DNA from: Commensalibacter melissae
GTDB taxonomy: Bacteria > Pseudomonadota > Alphaproteobacteria > Acetobacterales > Acetobacteraceae
Reading direction: 5' to 3'
NCBI RefSeq assembly: GCF_003691365.1
Contig: NZ_CP033087.1
Location: 882,501 to 946,500, forward strand
DNA: 64,000 nucleotides
Shown here: piece by piece, positions 33,844-47,261 of the stretch
Numbering within the stretch: the stretch's first letter is position 1
Layout of the letters: the number at the start of each line of letters is the position of its first letter
The notes under the pieces: model-generated
Database searches by the model: none
The model's input: only the letters and a program-made list of their open reading frames with translations
Told to the model about the DNA's origin: nothing
Program-made: the position numbers and the translations under genes

Positions 33844-33919
33844 GGGCGATTAGCTCAGTTGGTAGAGCATCTCGTTTACACCGAGAGGGTCGGCAGTTCG
33901 AGCCTGTCATCGCCCACCA
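33844..33919 (+). tRNA. tRNA-Val(UAC)
   Basis: Acceptor GGGCGAT pairs with ATCGCCC (33909-33915), discriminator A, CCA encoded. The anticodon stem TCTCG/CGAGA holds loop TTTACAC, anticodon TAC. The T loop is TTCGAGC. Confidence 0.97.
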
Positions 33920-33990
33920 TAAATTAATATTTTGTTAGATATTAATATTGACAAAATATTAAAGAGCTTTTAGAAAGCTTCATGTAATGC

Positions 33991-34068
<78 letters not shown>

Positions 34069-34275: not shown

Positions 34276-34641
34276 ATGCAGGCAATTTTAAACAGTTATT
34301 TACCCGTGTTAATATTTGGGATTATTTCTTTAATAATTGCGGTTGCAATGTTGGGTGCGGCATTATTTTGTGCAAAACAAAAACCATATGCTGAAAAGAT
34401 AACGCCTTATGAGTGCGGATTTCCGGCATTTGAAAATGCACGTCATATGTTTGACGTGCGCTATTATTTGGTGGGAATATTATTCACGATATTTGATCTG
34501 GAAATGGTGTTTCTGTTTCCATGGGCTTTGACCCTGTCTAAAACTGGCATGTTCGGTTTTTTCTCTATGGTTGTATTTCTTTTAGTCCTGACCATAGGTT
34601 TCGCGTATGAATGGTGCAAAGGTGCACTGGAATGGGATTAA
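34276..34641 (+). CDS. nuoA: NADH-quinone oxidoreductase subunit A
   Basis: 121 residues, three membrane helices, part of the complex I quinone-site region. It contains the signature KITPYECGFPAFENARHMFDVRYYL, whose Cys-containing loop faces the Q cavity, and IFDLEMVFLFPWA in the second helix. First gene of the nuo operon. nuoB follows after 38 bases. Confidence 0.96.
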   Translation: MQAILNSYLPVLIFGIISLIIAVAMLGAALFCAKQKPYAEKITPYECGFPAFENARHMFDVRYYLVGILFTIFDLEMVFLFPWALTLSKTGMFGFFSMVVFLLVLTIGFAYEWCKGALEWD

Positions 34642-34679
34642 GTAAAAATTATTCCATTGTCGGTTAAAACGAGTAGATA

Positions 34680-35255
34680 ATGAATATAAAAATAACAAAT
34701 AAATCTGATCCTGATCAGGTTTACTGGAATCAAGAAACGTTACCTCCTGGATCTGAACAGGATGCAGTTATTAAAGGAATAACGGGGGCAATTTCAAATA
34801 AAGGTTTTGTTGTTGCCAAGCTTGACCAATTAATCAATTGGGGAAGAACTGGCAGTCTTTGGCCAATGACATTTGGGTTGGCTTGTTGTGCTGTTGAAAT
34901 GATTCATGCCTATATGCCACGTTATGATTTGGACCGTATGGGGGTTGTTCCAATGGGATCGCCCAGACAGGCAGATGTCATGCTTGTGGCTGGTACGGTA
35001 ACGAATAAAATGGCACCTGCTTTACGTCGATTATATGACCAAATGTCAGAACCAAGATGGGTTCTTTCAATGGGATCCTGTGCAAATGGTGGGGGATATT
35101 ATCATTATTCCTATTCAGTCGTAAGGGGATGTGATCGTATTGTCCCTGTAGATGTTTATGTACCCGGGTGTCCGCCAACCGCTGAGGCATTGATTTATGG
35201 TATTATGTTGTTGAAAAAGAAAATCAAGCGTACAGGGACAATTCTTCGTGGTTAA
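34680..35255 (+). CDS. nuoB: NADH-quinone oxidoreductase subunit B
   Basis: 191 residues. It carries the N2 [4Fe-4S] cluster that reduces quinone. Ligands are in the tandem Cys of [10 protein letters not shown], in [12 protein letters not shown] and in [13 protein letters not shown]. The N-terminal ~30 residues are a variable extension. The nuoC start overlaps the end of this gene. Confidence 0.97.
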
Positions 35256-35916
35256 TTTTACAGAAAATTCTAAAAAAAGAACTTTAAATCAAAAAGCAAA
35301 TTTGCAGGCGATTGGTATGATGCTCATGTCTTCGTCAAATGGCGTTGTCAAGGCTGAGTTTGATCACGATGAATTAATCATATTGGTTAAACTCAACTGT
35401 TTGCTTGATGTGTTAATTCTGCTTAAAAATCATCCCATTTGCAAATTCGAACAATTGATGGATTTGTGCGGTGTTGATTATCCCTACCGTCAAAAAAGAT
35501 TTGATGTTGTCTATAATCTTTTATCTGTAACATTGAATCAGCGTATTCGTATCATTGTTCATACAGATGAAAAAGAACCGGTTCCCTCCGTTCATCATTT
35601 ATGGAAAAATGCAACGTGGTGGGAACGTGAATGTTATGACATGTTTGGTATATTATTTTCCGGACAGCCTGATTTGAGGCGCATTTTGACGGATTACGGA
35701 TTTGATGGACATCCTTTGCGAAAGGATTTCCCTGTTACAGGATATGTAGAAGTTAGATATGATGCTGATCAAAATAAAGTAATTTATGAACCGGTCCATT
35801 TGACACAGGAGATGCGGGACTTTGATTTTGATTCACCCTGGGAAGGTATTGTAACACTTCCTGGTGACGAAAAGATTCATGAGAAGCGTCAAAATATTAA
35901 ACCGTATTCTATATAG
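35248..35916 (+). CDS. nuoC: NADH-quinone oxidoreductase subunit C
   Basis: 222 residues from GTG 35248, which overlaps the last codons of nuoB (coupled translation). Peripheral-arm subunit of the 30-kDa family. It has [24 protein letters not shown] and the signature [41 protein letters not shown]. It is separate from nuoD, unlike the fused NuoCD of enterobacteria. Confidence 0.96.
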
Positions 35917-35940
35917 GATTAAACGGTAAAAGGATATTTG

Positions 35941-37191
35941 ATGAGTGAAATTATACAAGAAGGGGTAACCGATAAAACATCAGAGGTGAAATCTGAAATT
36001 TCTCAGAATATATCACATGTTTTATCAGGTGATACGCACACGATTAATTTTGGACCACAACATCCTTCTGCTCATGGTGTGTTGCGTGTTGTGATGGAAT
36101 TAGAGGGTGAGGTTGTTAAAAGGGCAACTCCGCATATTGGTTTATTACATCGTGGAACAGAAAAATTACTGGAGCACAAGGCTTATCATAAGGGACTGCC
36201 TTATTTTGATCGTTTGGATTATGCCTCTCCAATGAGCGAGGAACATGCCTATGTTCTTGCTACAGAAAAATTGCTGGGGATTGATGTTCCTGATCGTGCA
36301 AAATGGATAAGAGTTCTGTTTGCTGAAATAACCCGTATATTAAATCATTTACTGAACGTGACTGCCATGGGTCTCGATTGTGGGGCGATGACACCTGCAT
36401 TGTGGGCTTATGAAGAGCGCGAAAAATTAATGGAATTTTATGAAGGTGTATCTGGCGCCCGCTTTCATGCGAATTATTTTAGGCATGGGGGGGTGGCTAA
36501 GGATATGCCCGCAGGTATGGAAGAGAAAATTGGAAAATGGGTTAGAGATTTTCCAAAATTAATTGATGATATTGAAGGATTGTTAACAGAAAACCGTATT
36601 TGGAAACAGCGAACTGTTGGAATTGGAATCTGTACAACTGAAGATGCATTGTCATGGGGATTTTCTGGTCCATGTTTGCGAGCATCGGGAGTTGCATGGG
36701 ATTTGCGGCGATCCCAACCCTATGATAATTATGATAAAGTTGATTTTAAAATTCCCGTTGCTCGGCAAGGGGATTGTTATGATCGGTATTTGATTCGTGT
36801 TGTTGAAATGCGCGAGAGCGCCAAAATAATTGAGCAATGCCTAAGCAAGATAAAACCTGGTCCAATTAAGACTGAAGATGATAAAATCTCACCTCCAAAA
36901 CGCAAAGATATGAAACATTCAATGGAGGCATTGATTCATCATTTCAAACTTTATAGTGAAGGATTTCATGTTCCTGCAGGCACAACCTATACCGCTGTTG
37001 AAAGTCCAAAAGGTGAATTTGGGGTATATCTTGTGGCGGATGGCGGAAGCAAACCTTATCGTTGTAAAATACGTCCGACAGGTTTTTCGCATCTTCAAGC
37101 ATTAGATGAATTATCCCATCGATATATGTTGGCTGACATGGTTGCAATTATTGGTTCGTTGGATTTGGTTTTTGGTGAAGTGGATAGATAG
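35941..37191 (+). CDS. nuoD: NADH-quinone oxidoreductase subunit D
   Basis: 416 residues from ATG 35941. The preceding in-frame TTG is discounted because AAAAGGA at 35928-35934 fits the ATG. The 49-kDa subunit lines the quinone pocket. It has [14 protein letters not shown] with the quinone-headgroup His, [13 protein letters not shown], and the C-terminal [13 protein letters not shown]. The ~25-residue Ser/Glu-rich N-terminus is variable. Confidence 0.97.
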
Positions 37192-37197
37192 GGTGTA

Positions 37198-37833
37198 ATG
37201 TCAGAAAGTAAAATGAATATTGAGCCATCTGACTTCACTTTTGATAAAGAAAGTGAAATGCAGATAGAGAAGGTGCTTGCAAAATATCCGACAGGGAGAA
37301 AAGCAAGTGCTGTTATACCTTTATTATATATCGTTCAAGATCAGATGAAACGTTTGACCAAAAGTGCTTGGGTGCCAAAGGCGGCCATGGCTGCTGTTGC
37401 AAAACGTCTGGAAATTGCGCCTGTGAGGGTATTAGAAATTGCCACATTTTATACAATGTTTAACCTCGAACCCATAGGGCAATATCATTTGCAAGTTTGT
37501 GGAACAACACCATGCTGGTTGAGGGGATCGGATGAAGTGGTTGAAGCCTGTAAAAAAGCGACAGGAATCAGGGAATTTGGTCAAACCAGTGAAGATGGAT
37601 TGTTCACGCTTTCCGAGGTTGAATGTTTGGGTGCCTGTGCAAATGCGCCTATTCTACAGGTTGATCATGATTATTATGAAGACATGAATGGTCCAAAAAC
37701 CATTGAGTTAATTAATGCATTGAGAAGAGGGGAAAAATCGCCTCCAGGATCTGCATTAAATCGTTTGAATTCGGCTCCTTTGCGTCAAGATCATTCCTTA
37801 TCAGATAATTCAAAGGCCAAAAAACGATGCTAG
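37198..37833 (+). CDS. nuoE: NADH-quinone oxidoreductase subunit E
   Basis: 211 residues, thioredoxin-like 24-kDa subunit with the N1a [2Fe-2S] cluster. Ligands are visible in [11 protein letters not shown] and in [10 protein letters not shown]. The C-terminal ~30 residues are a variable tail. The nuoF ATG lies within its last codons (7-base overlap). Confidence 0.96.
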
Positions 37834-39149
37834 AATCTAAAGACCGTATTTATGTCAATTTGCATGGTCAGGATGACTGGAAATTGGCAGGTGCTCGTAA
37901 ACGGGGTGATTGGGATAATACCAAGGCTATTTTAGCTTTGGGACGTGAAAAAATCGTCAAAGAGGTAATTGACTCAGGGTTAAGGGGACGTGGTGGCGCA
38001 GGTTTCTCTACAGGTCTAAAATGGTCGTTTATGCCCAAAGGGGATGGTCCCTTACCTCATTATTTGGTAATTAATGGGGATGAATCAGAGCCTGGCACTT
38101 GCAAGGACAGGGAAGTTTTACGTCATGAGCCTCATAAAATTGTTGAAGGTGCATTGCTTGCCTCTTTTGCAATAGGCGCGCATGTTGCCTACATATATAT
38201 TCGTGGTGAATATTACCATGAAGCCAACAGACTGCAAGTTGCCATTGACGAGGCATATGAAGCGGGATTGATCGGTAAAAATGCCTGTGGTAGTGGTTGG
38301 GATTTTGATTTTTATATTCATCGCGGTGCAGGCGCATATATTTGTGGTGAGGAAACAGCCCAGCTTGAAAGTCTTGAAGGCAAAAAGGGACAGCCGCGTC
38401 TGAAGCCACCTTTCCCAGCGGGTAAGGGATTATATGGTTGTCCTACCACGATCAATAATGTTGAAAGCATTTCGGTAACCCCTACAATAATGCGTAGAGG
38501 AGCCGCTTGGTTTTCAAGTATAGGGCGTAAAAACAATACTGGTCCAAAACTAATGGCGATTTCGGGTCATATTCAAACTCCCTGTGTATTTGAAGAGGCA
38601 TTGGGATTGCCCTTGAAGGAAATTATTGAACGTCATGGCGGGGGTGTACGTGGTGGATGGGATAACCTTTTAGCTGTTATTCCGGGTGGTACGTCAATGC
38701 CCATGCTGAACAAGGAAGTGTGTGATACCGTTATAATGGATTTTGACGGTATGCGTGAAGTTGGGTCCGGGTTGGGAACGGCTGGCATAGTTGTGATGGA
38801 TAAGTCAACGGATCTTATTAGGGCGATTACACGTATTTCTCAGTTCTATAAACATGAAAGCTGTGGTCAGTGCACTCCATGTCGGGAAGGATCCAATTGG
38901 GTGCTGAAGGTCATGAAGAGAATGACAGAGGGACGTGCAGAAATAGAAGAAATTGATATGTTGATGGATGTAACGAAACAGATTGAAAACACAACAATCT
39001 GTGCAATGGGTATGTCTGTTGCCTGGCCCGTGCAAGCATTAATTCGTAATTTCCGTCCAATGATGGAACAAAGAATTATGGATTATAAGAAAACCCATGG
39101 TGGTGCTGTTCAGGTCCAGGTGCCTGTTGGAACGCCGGTATTGGGATAG
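37827..39149 (+). CDS. nuoF: NADH-quinone oxidoreductase subunit F (NADH and FMN binding)
   Basis: 440 residues. It binds NADH and FMN and carries cluster N3. Visible are the glycine-rich NADH site [16 protein letters not shown], the FMN region [17 protein letters not shown], and [21 protein letters not shown] in parts. The cluster motif is [12 protein letters not shown], with a further Cys in TTICAMG. Complete, and typical in length. Confidence 0.97.
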
Positions 39150-39158
39150 GAAGGAATT

Positions 39159-41222
39159 ATGGTAAAAGTTATCGTTGATGGTATTCCTGTGGATGTTCCC
39201 AATGGTTCTTCAGTATTACAGGCCTGTGAGGCAGCAGGAAAGGAAATCCCTCGTTTTTGTTATCATGAAAAACTTTCTGTGGCTGGAAACTGCAGAATGT
39301 GTATGGTTGAGATAACCGGTTCTCGTAAACCTCTGGTTTCATCATGCTCACAGCCAGTAATGAATGGAATGCAGGTTTTGACTGACACAGAAATGGTCAG
39401 GGCAGCGCGTCGCAGTACGATGGAACTGTTATTAATCAATCATCCCTTGGATTGTCCTATTTGCGACCAAGGTGGTGAATGTGATTTACAGGACCAGGCA
39501 GTAGGTTATGGACGTGAATGTTCGCGATTCAGGGATGAAAAAAGGGCAGTTACTGATAAGTATCTCGGACCGTTGGTTCGCACTGTCATGACACGTTGCA
39601 TTCAATGTACACGTTGTATTCGTTTTATGAATGAAATCGCTGGTACGGCAGAACTTGGCGGAATCAACCGGGGTACCAATCTAGAAATCACACCCTTTCT
39701 TGAAGAGGGTATCAATACAGAACTTTCCGGAAATCTTATTGATGTTTGCCCTGTTGGGGCTTTAACGGCCAAACCAACCGCGTTCCGTTACCGTTCGTGG
39801 GAACTGAAAAATACTGATTCAATAGATGTGATGGATTCTGTGGGAACGAATATAACTTTACAAGTGCGAGGAAGTGAGGTTTTGAGAATTCTCCCCCGTC
39901 AAAATGATGATGTTAATGAAAGTTGGCTTGCTGATAAGGGTCGTTTCTCTCTGGATGGTTTGAAACGGCGGCGTCTGGATCGACCATGGATAAGGAAAGA
40001 AGGCAAACTTGTCGAAACTTCATGGAATGAGGTAGTCCAGGTTGTTTCCCAAAAATTAAAATCTACGAAAAAAGAGCGTATAGGCGTCATTGCAGGGGAT
40101 TTATGTGATGCAGAAAGCATGTTCGCATTAAAAAATTTGATGAACGATCTTGGGGTCAGCAATTTAGATTGTCGTCAAGATGGGGCATATTACGATACCT
40201 CTTATCGTGGACATTATGTTTTCAATAGTACGATTGCAGGAATTGAGCAGGCTGATGCTTTATTGATGATAGGTGCTTTTCCACGTCAAGAGGCACCTGT
40301 ATTGAATGCCCGTATTCGTAAAAGATGGTTGTCTCTTACCGAACAATTTCCAATTGCATTTATAGGTGAACTTATTGATGATCCTACGTATAAAATTGAG
40401 AATTTAGGAGAGGATCCAACTTTAATTGATTCATTGTTACGAAATGAGCTTGCCTTTAACGAAATTCTGAATAATGCGAAACGCCCAATGATTATTATTG
40501 GACATGGGGCATTGGTTCGTGAAGATGCAAAATTAATATTTGAAAAAACCTTGGCTTTGGCTCATAAAATTGGCGCCGTAACCGAAAATTGGAATGGATT
40601 CAATGTCCTTCATCATGCAGCCGCTCGTGTTGCGGGTCTGGATATGGAATTTTATCCTAAATCGGATTCACAAGATGCACGCTCGATGGTTACGGGTGGC
40701 ACAGATCTTTTGTGGTTGCTTGATGCAGATGAAATTGATCTTTCAAAATTGGCTGCCGATTGCTTTGTGATTTATCAGGGACATCATGGAGATCGGTCTG
40801 CCAAACGTGCTGATATTATTTTACCTGGAGCCGCTTATACAGAAAAATCAGGTATTTATGTTAATACTGAAGGCAGAATTCAGCAGGGTAACAGGGCGAT
40901 TTTACCTCCTGGAAATGCCAAGGAAGATTGGAAAATTATTTCAGAAATTGCCCAATCAATGAATATTGATCTTCCTTATTCCAATTTATATGAGTTAAGA
41001 ACTTGCCTGGCACAGGCCTATCCTGTATTTAAGGAAAAGGGAGTAGTTAGAAACCAGATGTGTTCTTCCATAAATATTTCAGAAAAAAACATTGAAAAAC
41101 AATCTTTTAGGGCGATTATTTCAGATTATTTCTTAACGAATTCAATCAGTAGAGCCAGCCTCACAATGCATGAATGTTCAAAAACACGTGGTGCCAATTC
41201 ATCGGCAAAAGCTGCGGAGTGA
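39159..41222 (+). CDS. nuoG: NADH-quinone oxidoreductase subunit G
   Basis: 687 residues. It has an N-terminal ferredoxin-like [2Fe-2S] domain ([18 protein letters not shown], then SSCSQP). A His/Cys [4Fe-4S] segment ([20 protein letters not shown]) follows, then a second 4Fe-4S motif ([11 protein letters not shown]). The rest is a molybdopterin-oxidoreductase-like region (about 220-620) that has lost cofactor function in complex I. It passes electrons along the peripheral arm. Ten bases follow nuoF. Confidence 0.96.
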
Positions 41223-41226
41223 TATC

Positions 41227-42252
41227 ATGGAACATTTCTTTTTTCATACATTACTCGGATCAGTTATCCTGATTATATTAAAAACACTGGCACTATTGGT
41301 TCCAGTGCTTGTCGGTGTCGCTTATCTGACTTGGTTGGAACGTAAAGTTTTGGCTGCAATTATGCTTCGTAAAGGTCCGAATGTTGTTGGTCCTTTCGGT
41401 TTGCTGCAACCCTTTGCCGATGCGGTTAAAATGATTTTTAAGGAAACGATCATTCCTGCCAAGGCAAATCGGGTCTTGTTTTTTGTCGCGCCAATTCTAG
41501 TCTTTACATTGTCCCTATTCGCATGGGCGGTAATTCCCGTGAATGATGGTTGGGCTGTTGCAAATCTTAATATTGGTATACTTTACCTATTGGCGATTTC
41601 CTCCTTGGGTGTTTACGGAACTCTGTTGGCCGGCTGGGCCTCGAATTCGAAATACTCTTTATTGGGGGCCATGCGTGCCACGGCACAGATGATATCTTAT
41701 GAAGTCTCGATTGGACTTGTTATCGTTTCCGTACTGTTGCTTGTTGGTAGTGCAAATATGAACGATATTGTCCTGGCACAAAAACATGTCTGGTTTTTCC
41801 TGCCAATGTTTCCCATGTTCATTATTTTCTTTATTTCATGTTTAGCTGAAACCAATCGTCCACCTTTTGATTTTTCAGTTGGTGAAAGTGAACTGGTGGC
41901 AGGTTTTTTTGTGGAATATTCCTCAATGGCCTTCGGATTATTTTTTCTGGCTGAATATGGCAACATGATTTTGATGTCTGCAATTACCAGCATCATATTT
42001 TTAGGTGGATGGTTGCCACCCTTTGATTGTGTGCCGTTTACCTGGATACCTGCACCTTTCTGGATGATAATTAAAGTTTTATTTTGTCTATTTTGTTTTA
42101 TATGGGTAAGAAGCGCGTTTCCAAGATACCGTTATGATCAGTTAATGCGATTAGGCTGGAAAATATTCTTACCCTTTTCATTAATATGGGTTGTGCTTAC
42201 CGCTGCGTTTGTAATGGTAACCGGCGTAGGGATATATGGAGGAGCTGGTTAA
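41227..42252 (+). CDS. nuoH: NADH-quinone oxidoreductase subunit H
   Basis: 341 residues from ATG 41227. The frame extends back to 41170 inside nuoG, which is rejected. Membrane subunit ND1 that, with NuoB and NuoD, builds the quinone tunnel. Signatures are [63 protein letters not shown] (in parts), and C-terminal [15 protein letters not shown]. The nuoI start overlaps its stop. Confidence 0.97.
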
Positions 42253-42740
42253 TGGGTTTTATTGATAGAACCGCACGGTCTTTTTTATTATCAGAATTGT
42301 TGACTGGACTTGGAATAACACTACGTTATTTCTTCAAACCGAAGGCAACAATCAATTATCCTTATGAAAAAAGTCCTCTTTCACCACGGTTTAGAGGGGA
42401 GCATGCCTTGCGTCGTTATGCCAATGGAGAAGAGCGTTGCATTGCGTGCAAATTGTGTGAGGCAACGTGTCCGGCTGAAGCAATTACCATTGAGGCTGAA
42501 GAGCGGAATGATGGTTCGAGAAGAACTACCCGGTATGATATAGATATGACAAAATGCATCTATTGTGGGTTATGTCAGGAAGCATGTCCTGTTGACGCGA
42601 TTGTTCAAGGACCCAATTACGAATTCGCCACTGAAACTCGGGAAGAGTTGATGTACGACAAAAGCAAATTATTGTCTAATGGGGATCAATGGGAAAGTGC
42701 CTTGGCATTGAGACTGGAGCAGGATGCTCCATATCGGTGA
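42252..42740 (+). CDS. nuoI: NADH-quinone oxidoreductase subunit I
   Basis: 162 residues from ATG 42252, overlapping the nuoH stop by one base. It carries clusters N6a and N6b in two ferredoxin motifs, [12 protein letters not shown] and [12 protein letters not shown]. The N-terminal amphipathic part ([21 protein letters not shown]) docks on the membrane arm. Spacing to nuoJ is unusual because a small ORF lies between. Confidence 0.97.
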
Positions 42741-42757
42741 GGCAGGAAACATTTAAA

Positions 42758-42817
42758 ATGAATAAATTAATTTATATATCGGGTCTTATAAAGATCTTTG
42801 ATCAGGAATTAGGATAA
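42758..42817 (+). CDS. Possible 19-codon mini-ORF between nuoI and nuoJ
   Basis: ATG 42758 opens a 19-residue frame (MNKLIYISGL, then IKIFDQELG) ending at TAA 42815-42817, whose last base is the A of the nuoJ ATG. A purine-rich GAGGCAGGA precedes it at the nuoI stop. It may be a leader peptide coupling translation to nuoJ, or a chance frame. The peptide resembles nothing I know. Confidence 0.35.
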   Translation: MNKLIYISGLIKIFDQELG

Positions 42818-43551
42818 TGACACCGATTATTCTTTTTTATATTTTCGCAATAATTTTGCTACTATCAGCATCGATGGTTGTTTTTGTTCGAAATTCAGTT
42901 CATGCAGCCCTATTTCTAATTCTTGCATTCTGTAATGCCGCTGGATTGTTTATGCTGGCCGGTGCCGAATTTTTGGCTATACTTTTGATAGCCATATATG
43001 CTGGTGCAGTCATGGTTCTGTTTATGTTTATTGTAATGACAATGCAAATAGAGCTGGTCCAGTTAAAGGAAGGAATGCAGCGTTACATGCCTGTGGGTTG
43101 TATCATTGCTTTTATTCTTGTCGTTGAATTTATTATGATTGCCATCCATTGGCATGTTGATCCTGAATTGATAGGCAAGGGTCAAAATTCTGCGTTGCAT
43201 GATATTTCGAATACCAAAGCATTGGGGGATATTTTATATACGCATTATGTTTTGTTATTCCAGATTTGTGGATTAATCCTGCTTGTTGCAATGATCGGTG
43301 CAATTGTCTTGACCCTGCATAAAAATCCTAAAAACCGTAGACAGAACATTATGCGCCAACATATGCGCGAACCTAGCCAAACTCTGGAAATTCGTGATGT
43401 GCCCTTGAATAAAAGCATTCAGGATATTGGCGGTTTCCTTCGTCCCAAAGAGACTTATTATGGTGTTGTACAAGAGGATTCCTTCGGTCCAAAACCTGGT
43501 GATAAAACCGATATTACTGAAAAAAGACAGCAAAGGGAGCAAATGAAATGA
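42817..43551 (+). CDS. nuoJ: NADH-quinone oxidoreductase subunit J
   Basis: 244 residues, five membrane helices in the first ~170. The family segment [26 protein letters not shown] (in parts) includes the pi-bulge helix. The hydrophilic C-terminal tail of ~70 residues is longer than in E. coli NuoJ and is rich in charged residues. The stop overlaps the nuoK ATG. Confidence 0.95.
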
Positions 43552-43868
43552 ATATTTTAAATTCTGTGGGGCTTGCTCCCTATATGATTGTCAGTGGTAT
43601 TTTATTTTCAATTGGTCTGTTTGGTGTTTTTGCCAATCGGAAGAATTTAATTGTTATATTGATGTCTATTGAATTGATGCTTTTATCTGCAAATCTTAAT
43701 TTAATTGCATTCTCTTCTTTATATAGCAATTTAACAGGGCAGATTATGGTTATGTTTAGCCTTACAGTCGCCGCTGCAGAATCTGCCATCGGACTTGCCA
43801 TTATTATGGTATTTTATCGTAATCGTCGGTCGGTGGAAGTGCAAGATACGATGATGATGAAGGGGTAA
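43548..43868 (+). CDS. nuoK: NADH-quinone oxidoreductase subunit K
   Basis: 106 residues, three membrane helices. It contains the conserved Glu-bearing helix [22 protein letters not shown] and [15 protein letters not shown], key for proton movement next to NuoN. Ribosome-binding site AAGGGAG at 43533-43539. Confidence 0.96.
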
Positions 43869-43872
43869 AGAA

Positions 43873-45810
43873 ATGACATCATCATTATTTATTACAGCTG
43901 TTATCTCACCCTTGGCTGGTTTTTTATGCGCAGGGTTAATGGGGCGGATAATCGGTGATTCATTTGCGAAGTTTATTTCTATTCTTGGAATGTCCATATC
44001 GGTTACATGTGCATGGCTTGTAACTTGGCAATTTTTTGCCAATCATATGGATAGTCAAGTTGTTCATTTTATGGAGTGGATCAATGCCGGTAATTTTCAT
44101 ATTAACTGGTATTTGAAACTGGACAGTTTGTCTGTCGCCATGTTGACGATGGTATCAAGCATATCCTTGTTAATCCATATCTATAGTATGGGATATATGT
44201 CGCATGACACGATGCCAACTTATCGCTTTTTTGCATATTTATCTTTATTTACATTCAGTATGATTGCCTTGATTACTTCTAATAATCTGGTTCAATTGTT
44301 TTTTGGCTGGGAAGGGGTAGGTTTATGCAGTTATTTACTTATTGGATACTGGTATATGCGTCCAGCAGCTATATCAGCCGCAATCAAGGCTTTTGTTGTA
44401 AATCGTATTGCGGATCTATTTTTTCTCGTAGGCATTAGTTTGCTTTTTATCACGACCGGTTCGGTTTTTTATAATGAAATATTTCAAAAATTACCTGATT
44501 TAGTTCAACTGCATTATCATTTATTGGGTTTTGATTTCCAGATATATGAATTTATTGCATTCCTGCTATTTGTCGGGGCCATGGGAAAGTCTGCCCAATT
44601 GTTTTTTCATGTATGGTTACCGGATGCAATGGAAGGACCAACGCCAGTTTCCGCACTTATTCATGCCGCAACTATGGTGACAGCAGGTGTATTCTTGATG
44701 GCAAGAATGTCACCCCTGGTTGAATTGGCTCCACATGTTAAGATATTCATTATTGTTATAGGATCATTAACAGCATTATTTGCCGGTTCTGTTGCTTTGG
44801 TACAATCAGATATTAAGAAATCCATTGCTTATTCAACTTGTTCTCAGCTTGGATATATGTTTGTCGCAGTTGGTGTGGGAACCTATCAAATTGCAGTATT
44901 CCATTTAACGACACACGCTTTTTTCAAGGCATTGTTGTTTCTTGGTGCGGGATCAGTGATTATCGCGCTTCATGATGAACAGGATATGTTCAAGATGGGT
45001 GGATTGTATAAAAAATTACCTTTGACTTGCATATTGATGTGGATAGGCTGTTTAGCATTGGGTGGAATATATCCATTTGCAGGTTACTGGTCAAAAGATG
45101 CCATTCTGGAAGCTGTTTGGGCAACCCAATCTTCTTTGGGATATGCGGCTTGGGTTGTATTGTTATTAACTGCGTTTCTTACAAGCCTATATAGCTGGCG
45201 GATGTTGTTTCTTGTGTTCCATGGAAAACCAAAACATAAGGAAAATTATGATCATGCAAAAGAATCTCCTTTCTCTATGACTTTACCCATGATCATACTT
45301 GGTGTTTCATCAATTATTGGAGGCATTATCCTATATCCTTATTATATAGGTTCTCAACAAGTTATATTTTGGGGAGGTTCAATTGTTAATGTTTCAGCTA
45401 ATTTGCATATGATTATTGAGCAACATACACCTGCAATTATTGCATTAATGCCACTTATACTTGGTATACTGGGTATTTTAATCGCTTATTTATGTTATAT
45501 AGTTAATCCGAATATCCCTATATCATTAGCTCAGTCAATGAAGGGGTTTTACCGTTTTCTATTAAATGCATGGTATTTCGATAAACTTTACGATGTAATA
45601 ATTATCCGTCCTTATGCGGTTTTGTCTAAGGCATTATGGAAAATTGGTGAAAAAGATATTATCCAGGAATTTCCTGTCATACTGGCGCAATTTACAAATC
45701 GTTCTGCCAAAGGGATATCCTGGATTCAAAATGGTTCTTTTGCTTTATATGCTTTTACCATGGCAATTGGGTTGGTGGTTATCGTCGCCACTTTCCTGAT
45801 CTATCAATGA
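43873..45810 (+). CDS. nuoL: NADH-quinone oxidoreductase subunit L
   Basis: 645 residues, full-length antiporter-like subunit. It has the central Lys and Glu helices and the family blocks LFFGWEGVGLCSYLLIGYW, FLLFVGAMGKSAQLFFHVWLPDAMEGPTPVSALIHAATMVTAG (in parts) and SDIKKSIAYSTCSQLGYMFVAVG. The C-terminus has the long lateral helix region and last membrane helix. It was checked for fusion with NuoM. The protein ends like a normal NuoL with no added antiporter domain. nuoN begins 26 bases after its stop. Confidence 0.97.
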   Translation: MTSSLFITAVISPLAGFLCAGLMGRIIGDSFAKFISILGMSISVTCAWLVTWQFFANHMDSQVVHFMEWINAGNFHINWYLKLDSLSVAMLTMVSSISLLIHIYSMGYMSHDTMPTYRFFAYLSLFTFSMIALITSNNLVQLFFGWEGVGLCSYLLIGYWYMRPAAISAAIKAFVVNRIADLFFLVGISLLFITTGSVFYNEIFQKLPDLVQLHYHLLGFDFQIYEFIAFLLFVGAMGKSAQLFFHVWLPDAMEGPTPVSALIHAATMVTAGVFLMARMSPLVELAPHVKIFIIVIGSLTALFAGSVALVQSDIKKSIAYSTCSQLGYMFVAVGVGTYQIAVFHLTTHAFFKALLFLGAGSVIIALHDEQDMFKMGGLYKKLPLTCILMWIGCLALGGIYPFAGYWSKDAILEAVWATQSSLGYAAWVVLLLTAFLTSLYSWRMLFLVFHGKPKHKENYDHAKESPFSMTLPMIILGVSSIIGGIILYPYYIGSQQVIFWGGSIVNVSANLHMIIEQHTPAIIALMPLILGILGILIAYLCYIVNPNIPISLAQSMKGFYRFLLNAWYFDKLYDVIIIRPYAVLSKALWKIGEKDIIQEFPVILAQFTNRSAKGISWIQNGSFALYAFTMAIGLVVIVATFLIYQ

Positions 45811-45836
45811 TATTAAGTTAAGTCAGGATAAATCCG

Positions 45837-47261
45837 ATGAATTGGACGCTTGCTATTCCAGAAATTGTATTAACAATTGGTGGTCTTATTATATTGTTAT
45901 TCGGGGCGCTGCAAAAAAAGGAAAATTCCTTTTTTCCCTCTGCCATTTTTTCTACGGCAATATTTATTGCCGCGGGATTTTTAACGTTAACCAATGCAAA
46001 TGGGTTGGCATATTACGGGTTATTTGTAAATGATGAATTTTCCCGTTACATGAAATTGCTGGTTCTTATTGCAGGTTTATTAACAATTATTTTGTCCTTG
46101 GATTTTAATAAAAAAAATAAAACAACATATTTTGAATTTATAGCGTTGATAATTTTTTCCACGGTCGGTGCAATGGTTATGGTCTCATCCAATAATCTTA
46201 TGAGCCTGTATCTTGGACTGGAGTTATCTTCGTTATCTTTATATATTTTATGTGCAATTGATCGTAACAATCCGTTATCAGCTGAATCTGGGATTAAATA
46301 TTTCATTTTGGGATCAGTCGCGTCTGCAATTTTACTTTATGGTATTTCTATGCTTTATGGCGCAGCTGGAAGTATGGAATATAACAATGTTCATAAAGCC
46401 ATTGCAGCGGCAAATTATAATAATATAGGTTTTGTCGTGGGACTGGTTTTTGTTTTAATTGGAATATGCTTTAAAATTTCTGCAGTACCTTTTCATATGT
46501 GGACACCGGATGTTTATCAAGGTGCTCCCACGCCTGTTACAACCTTTCTTTCGACGTCGCCAAAATTTGCAGCTTTTGCATTATTTTTACGGTTAATGTC
46601 GGAACCTTTTGGAACCTTATCCTATCAATGGCAGTTTTTGATTGAAGTTATATCATTGTTATCCATAATTATTGGAAGTATTGGTGCTATATCACAATTA
46701 AATATTAAAAGAATGATGGCATATTCTTCAGTTGCACATATGGGATATGCAATGGTTGGATTAGCTGCAGGAAATTCAAATGGTGTTTTGGGAACGATCA
46801 TTTACTTGACAACTTATCTTTTCATGAATGTCGGAACTTTTGCCGTGATTACATCTATGACGCGAAAAGGTAAGGTTGTAGAAAACATAAATGATTTGGC
46901 TGGACTTGGTAAAAGTGATCCGGGCATAGCGGTTGCTATGGCAATTTTCATGTTTAGTATGGCAGGTGTTCCGCCACTTGCAGGATTCTTTGGTAAATTT
47001 ATGGTTTTTTGGGCAGCTATTCAGGTGCATTTATACGTACTTGCAACAGTTGGAATTGTTGCCAGCGTTTTAAGCGCTTTTTTCTATCTTAGGATTGTCA
47101 AGATCATCTTCATGGATAAATCTCATGGACAACTTGATCATCGTTCATTATCAATTTCTTTTATGTCCTTTGGTATGAGCGCGTTAACGGTAATTTTTAT
47201 CATATTTATGGGCCCAATGATGCATGTTGGACGCATTGCGGCTAAATCTTTGTTTAATTAA
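45837..47261 (+). CDS. nuoN: NADH-quinone oxidoreductase subunit N
   Basis: 474 residues, the ND2-type antiporter-like subunit. It is identified as NuoN rather than NuoM by LGLELSSLSLYILCA, KISAVPFHMWTPDVYQGAPTPVT followed by FLSTSPKFAAF, and KRMMAYSSVAHMGYAM. CAGGATA at 45823-45829 is the ribosome-binding site. In a standard operon nuoM would lie between nuoL and this gene, and it is absent. Confidence 0.97.
   Translation: MNWTLAIPEIVLTIGGLIILLFGALQKKENSFFPSAIFSTAIFIAAGFLTLTNANGLAYYGLFVNDEFSRYMKLLVLIAGLLTIILSLDFNKKNKTTYFEFIALIIFSTVGAMVMVSSNNLMSLYLGLELSSLSLYILCAIDRNNPLSAESGIKYFILGSVASAILLYGISMLYGAAGSMEYNNVHKAIAAANYNNIGFVVGLVFVLIGICFKISAVPFHMWTPDVYQGAPTPVTTFLSTSPKFAAFALFLRLMSEPFGTLSYQWQFLIEVISLLSIIIGSIGAISQLNIKRMMAYSSVAHMGYAMVGLAAGNSNGVLGTIIYLTTYLFMNVGTFAVITSMTRKGKVVENINDLAGLGKSDPGIAVAMAIFMFSMAGVPPLAGFFGKFMVFWAAIQVHLYVLATVGIVASVLSAFFYLRIVKIIFMDKSHGQLDHRSLSISFMSFGMSALTVIFIIFMGPMMHVGRIAAKSLFN

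Follow-up and report, generated by a model that had tools for sequence, protein, structure and literature searches.

The complex I gene nuoM lies outside the nuo operon in Commensalibacter melissae and other acetic acid bacteria

The window considered here, a stretch of 64,000 nucleotides of the Commensalibacter melissae chromosome, carries an operon for complex I on its plus strand. Eleven genes, nuoA-B-C-D-E-F-G-H-I-J-K, follow one another in the usual order at 34276..43868, as read from the open reading frames and NCBIfam matches; NuoA matched subunit A models only, every one of them below its curated NCBIfam cut-off. Ahead of them, tRNA-Val (tac) and tRNA-Asp (gtc) lie at 33844-34068, between an HU/IHF-like gene and nuoA. 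The next gene is a full-length nuoL of 645 residues (43873..45810), whose match to TIGR01974 (768 bits, cut-off 407.5) spans residues 5-641. The normal place of nuoM is taken by a junction of 26 bases (45811..45836, plus strand) with an AGGA core at 45825-45828, and it leads directly into a full-length nuoN of 474 residues (45837..47261), which scores 568.6 bits against NF004440 (cut-off 519) and 474.7 bits against TIGR01770 (cut-off 332.6). The open reading frame list holds no frame between nuoL and nuoN at 45811-45836, and no remnant of NuoM was found in the junction or fused to its neighbours, NuoL and NuoN being no longer than the family models predict. An earlier note on this DNA had described the same order, nuoA to nuoL and then nuoN after 26 bases, with intact flanking genes and no part of NuoM in or beside the junction, and on all three points it is borne out. 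In other Acetobacteraceae and Alphaproteobacteria the canonical nuoA-N operon has the same genes in the same order, but with nuoM between nuoL and nuoN; a copy lies beside nuoN in 104 of the 118 genomes of the family sample with a NuoM match (E cut-offs 1e-100 for NuoM and 1e-85 for NuoN). Downstream of nuoN the window carries birA and coaX, as does a canonical relative (L054). The absence of nuoM is thus confirmed, as an absence from the operon and not from the genome.

An error or collapse of the assembly at the nuoL-nuoN junction, which according to the earlier note would remove the observation, is contradicted by independent genomes. A second genome of the same species, on one contig (G152), and the genome G002 likewise have nuoM and nuoN at separate places, and nuoN comes directly after nuoL in the five other genomes of the genus in which the junction was read (G003 to G007), so that no accident of assembly is at work. 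The comparison across relatives that the note had proposed gave the same kind of junction further afield, in all 11 of the genomes from other genera with the nuoN locus read (of 12; G153 was left out). Nothing was seen that speaks for this explanation, and we give it next to no probability.

The whole genome, 2.02 Mb in two contigs and listed as 100% complete, was searched with PF00361, as the note had also suggested, and the search returned NuoL, NuoN and just one further match, at C1:1379081-1379926. This last match belongs to a full-length open reading frame of 513 residues at G000:C1:1378781-1380322, on the minus strand of the same chromosome and about 450 kb from nuoL. Its product scores 541.1 bits against the NuoM model TIGR01972 (cut-off 263.8), compared with only 130.2 bits against the NuoN model TIGR01770; against the equivalog NF004499 it reaches 562.4 bits, below the cut-off of 585. 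The nearest solved subunit is 8qby_M, subunit M of a complex I (E 8.7e-123, residues 4-484). A paralogue of the Mrp or hydrogenase (Hyf/Hyc) type, from which such hits have to be separated, was rejected: the best Mrp-type model gives 164.7 bits versus 562 for NuoM, and the gene is flanked by mutL upstream and fumC (class II fumarase) downstream, with parE on the other strand, rather than by mrp or hyf genes. All 14 complex I genes, nuoA to nuoN, are therefore in the genome, 13 in the window (NuoA below the NCBIfam cut-offs) and nuoM elsewhere. Since an intact nuoM was found, the finding reduces to a relocation, as the earlier note had foreseen for that case.

The relocated gene looks functional as far as its sequence can tell, being intact and having kept its channel residues. 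E144, K234, K265, H241, H322, H348 and E407, numbered as in E. coli nuoM, with E407 as the NuoM-type glutamate, are present in 17 of 17 aligned rows of relocated NuoM; we take their importance from published work on E. coli NuoM. The seven aligned Commensalibacter nuoM sequences all start with GTG, preceded by a GAGA motif, and they share a block upstream of the gene with a TATA-like stretch at its end; this conserved TATA-like block lies within the 131 bases that separate mutL from nuoM. Between nuoM and fumC there is a hairpin followed by a run of T (-18.1 kcal/mol, z -5.0, equalled by none of 200 shuffles). This hairpin gives nuoM a terminator of its own, and at its present place the gene is predicted to be a single-gene unit. 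A promoter of its own is likely as well, although a scan with a generic consensus does not list it: the scan gave 8 sites where 7.4 were expected, no excess, and none of them directly upstream of nuoM. The exact block found upstream of nuoM was not found upstream of nuoA.

NuoM would be expected to assemble into a normal complex of 14 subunits in this species. For Commensalibacter no data on expression or assembly were found; for Acetobacter pasteurianus there are protein data in print. According to the accessible part of one report (PMC10742644), the separately encoded NuoM protein of that bacterium is made, and its level follows those of NuoB-I and NuoN; NuoM, listed apart from the operon-numbered subunits, shows fold changes of 0.62, 0.33, 2.16 and 1.78, next to 0.39, 0.24, 2.72 and 2.05 for nuoB. 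These observations bear on the second reading that the earlier note had offered beside a gene moved elsewhere, namely a complex I without NuoM that runs on two antiporter-like pumps. The operon itself, without its nuoM, invites this reading, but an intact gene with TIGR01972 above cut-off refutes it at the level of the genome, and both the conserved channel residues and the NuoM protein measured in A. pasteurianus speak against it. We regard a complex with fewer pumping units as very improbable; of the note's interpretation, it is the moved gene that stands.

The arrangement is by no means confined to one genome. Among the nine Commensalibacter genomes read, nuoM adjoins mutL in eight (G000, G001, G002, G004, G005, G006, G007 and G152), and in the ninth (G003) the contig begins inside nuoM. 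The same holds for 9 of the 12 genomes that were read from ten other genera (G008, G016, G020, G061, G072, G090, G103, G116 and G153); nuoM follows mutL at a distance of 2.0 kb in G101 and of 7.2 kb in G086, and the 12 kb read in G147 showed no mutL. In the family sample, the 14 genomes without a nuoM beside nuoN comprise ten with the relocated gene and four others (G011, G024, G082 and G121). For these four, contig ends are the likely explanation; in G024, the only one of them checked, nuoM adjoins a partial nuoN. Counted by copies at the same E cut-offs, 27 nuoM are not beside a nuoN, 15 of them relocated and 12 of other kinds (extra copies, second-type complexes with a nuoN below the cut-off, and contig ends, as far as part of them were checked). 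A profile of the relocated type of NuoM matched 65 of 397 family genomes at 783-889 bits, the next best match being 693; 62 of these genomes, from 11 genera, have one match each at the threshold and three, of the genus g124, have two, with at most three candidates scored per genome, so that a second copy could be missed. Conversely, mutL was found without an adjacent nuoM in all 13 genomes examined that have nuoM in the operon (some of the stretches extend only 1.2-1.3 kb past mutL), and the order ileS-lspA-mutL is visible in six of the 13. The site therefore pre-existed, and it was nuoM that came in.

Other kinds of complex I gene arrangement were also encountered in the family. A second, distant type of complex I, in which nuoL and nuoM adjoin, is present at L045, L080-L083, L090 and L093 (genomes G015, G029, G032, G030 and G072), and some of the genomes with this type also have the relocated type of nuoM. 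Extra stand-alone copies of nuoM occur in two other genera, at G018:C1:993077-994525 (L091) and G132:C1:2218110-2219552 (L092); the two are sisters in the tree and come from their own canonical group, and their neighbours are unrelated.

In a tree of NuoM, the relocated proteins form one clade (98/83), and together with a stand-alone copy from g124 they form one group inside the family (100/100). This nesting, with an AU test of import from outside the family at p 0.001, led us to reject a foreign origin of the gene. The group is sister to the lineage of G098, G030 and G126 and then to G083 (99/96 and 100/99), a placement that recurs in a larger quick tree. A tree of NuoL and NuoN joins the relocated genomes (17 rows, support 100) to the same four lineages with a support of 97. 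The congruence of the two trees fits one move of the native gene. It is worth pointing out that the stem of relocated NuoM is long, at 0.52-0.54 changes per column versus 0.20 for NuoL and NuoN, and that long branches are a weakness common to all the tree tests given here. The reading that we hold, with good confidence, is that the native nuoM moved once, in the ancestor of the acetic acid bacteria (the acetous clade), to the place downstream of mutL. The move would have begun with a copy and been completed by the loss of the copy in the operon; the gene would now be a single-gene unit, and its protein would still take its place in complex I between NuoL and NuoN, as the middle one of the antiporter-like pumps, in an enzyme with all 14 subunits.

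The genus g124 has two kinds of NuoM. All three of its genomes (G130, G421 and G422, 2.7 Mb each) carry nuoL-M-N and, in addition, an intact stand-alone nuoM. That of G130, at L078:7128-8660, is of the relocated (acetous) type; its neighbours include genes for a glutamate synthase and a GST, and ctaG/cox11, while mutL lies elsewhere. A recent local duplication in G130 was rejected (AU p 1e-10), and a placement of the stand-alone NuoM inside the acetous clade was not (AU p 0.10). Among the three genomes, a Nei-Gojobori script gives a dN/dS of about 0.03-0.07 for the stand-alone nuoM, and of 0.02-0.03 for the nuoM in the operon; both copies are thus under purifying selection. The simplest reading is a lateral gain of the stand-alone gene from an early acetous lineage. 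In G422 the nuoN match (G422:C1:1427453-1428673) contains one in-frame TGA, unlike those of its two relatives.

There is one further feature of the relocated NuoM, and it concerns the protein rather than the place of its gene. Near-invariant sites were defined on 41 canonical rows from the family and the class, leaving out G098, G030, G126 and G083. The relocated genomes differ at 52 of 196 such sites in NuoM, as against 4 of 166 in NuoL and 4 of 124 in NuoN. (An earlier count of 24/154 versus 3/160 and 4/110, Fisher p 2e-6, used the sister lineages as reference and treated sites as independent; the count of 52/196 is preferred.) NuoM that is still borne in the operon differs at 25 of 195 sites in G098, G030 and G126 and at 33 of 196 in G083, compared with 2.4-6.5% of the sites in NuoL and NuoN of these lineages and 1.1-2.5% in NuoM of the other control lineages. 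The change is therefore specific to NuoM and was already under way when the gene relocated, which weakens the relocation as a cause of the fast divergence. Among the changed sites are neighbours of E144, K265 and H322, and also H248, which is Y in 17 of 17 rows. Within the earlier count, 11 of the 24 sites fall in one 52-residue window (permutation p 0.006), an exploratory result in which the window length was set post hoc. Both relaxed constraint and adaptation are possible for this change.

The long stem and the number of changed sites leave room for a paralogue in the place of the native copy. According to this account, a duplication of nuoM inside the family came first; the copy that stood alone then diverged, and the acetous lineage eventually lost the one in its operon and has since relied on the divergent one. 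The genus g124, with one nuoM in the operon and another, of the relocated type, standing alone in the same genome, has the gene content that such a history would leave, and 43 of the 52 changed sites are changed in its stand-alone copy as well. Yet the operon NuoM of G098, G030, G126 and G083 already has part of the NuoM-specific change and groups with the relocated type, as vertical descent predicts, and the AU test disfavours a duplication common only to g124 and the acetous clade (p 0.003). We consider the exchange of paralogues quite unlikely and retain a single move of the native gene. A more far-reaching idea, which we offer tentatively and think rather doubtful, is that NuoM has become specialised in the acetic acid bacteria and their sister lineages: only the middle pump would have been rebuilt around its channel lysines (the TM7-TM8 region, with H248 to Y and the changes beside E144, K265 and H322) with NuoL and NuoN conserved, the gene would have left the operon afterwards, and g124, having acquired the special copy, could build two forms of complex I that differ only in NuoM.

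Part of this has been in print. For A. pasteurianus, PMC5158111 lists a nuo operon and, apart from it, nuoM, and the accessible part of that source agrees with our genomes in having a 13-locus operon, as counted from the locus numbers, with nuoM elsewhere in the genome; it differs in giving the annotation only, without neighbourhood, tree or comparison, and the genome studied here is a Commensalibacter. Split nuo clusters are common, and most clades mix split and single-cluster forms of complex I, according to the part of PMC12361115 available to us; the likeness is that the nuo genes are not all in one cluster, and the difference is that here one gene alone has moved, apparently once, to a site kept across many genera. 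The accessible text of PMC4596401 gives the number of nuo operons in acetic acid bacteria, and the tree built there on nuoHIJKLN does not include nuoM; in PMC10715153, which treats complex I in Acetobacteraceae, NuoM is absent from the main text as available. In the open-access literature, as far as its text was accessible, neither the move across the clade, nor the divergence specific to NuoM, nor the double NuoM was found described, and a search of open-access sources on nuoM in Commensalibacter found no paper.

The relocation described here is an ordinary one; for one acetic acid bacterium it had already appeared in print as an annotation, and here it is extended to a clade. It removes a false lead, in that a pump gene absent from the operon is not a pump absent from the enzyme. 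It also shows that, in a tightly built membrane complex, one subunit can be encoded by a gene on its own across a whole clade, and in one species the distant nuoM still follows the other subunits at the protein level. Less ordinary, and deserving of a second look, are the divergence of NuoM alone and the genus with two NuoM, which together offer natural material on how much change the central pump of complex I can tolerate.
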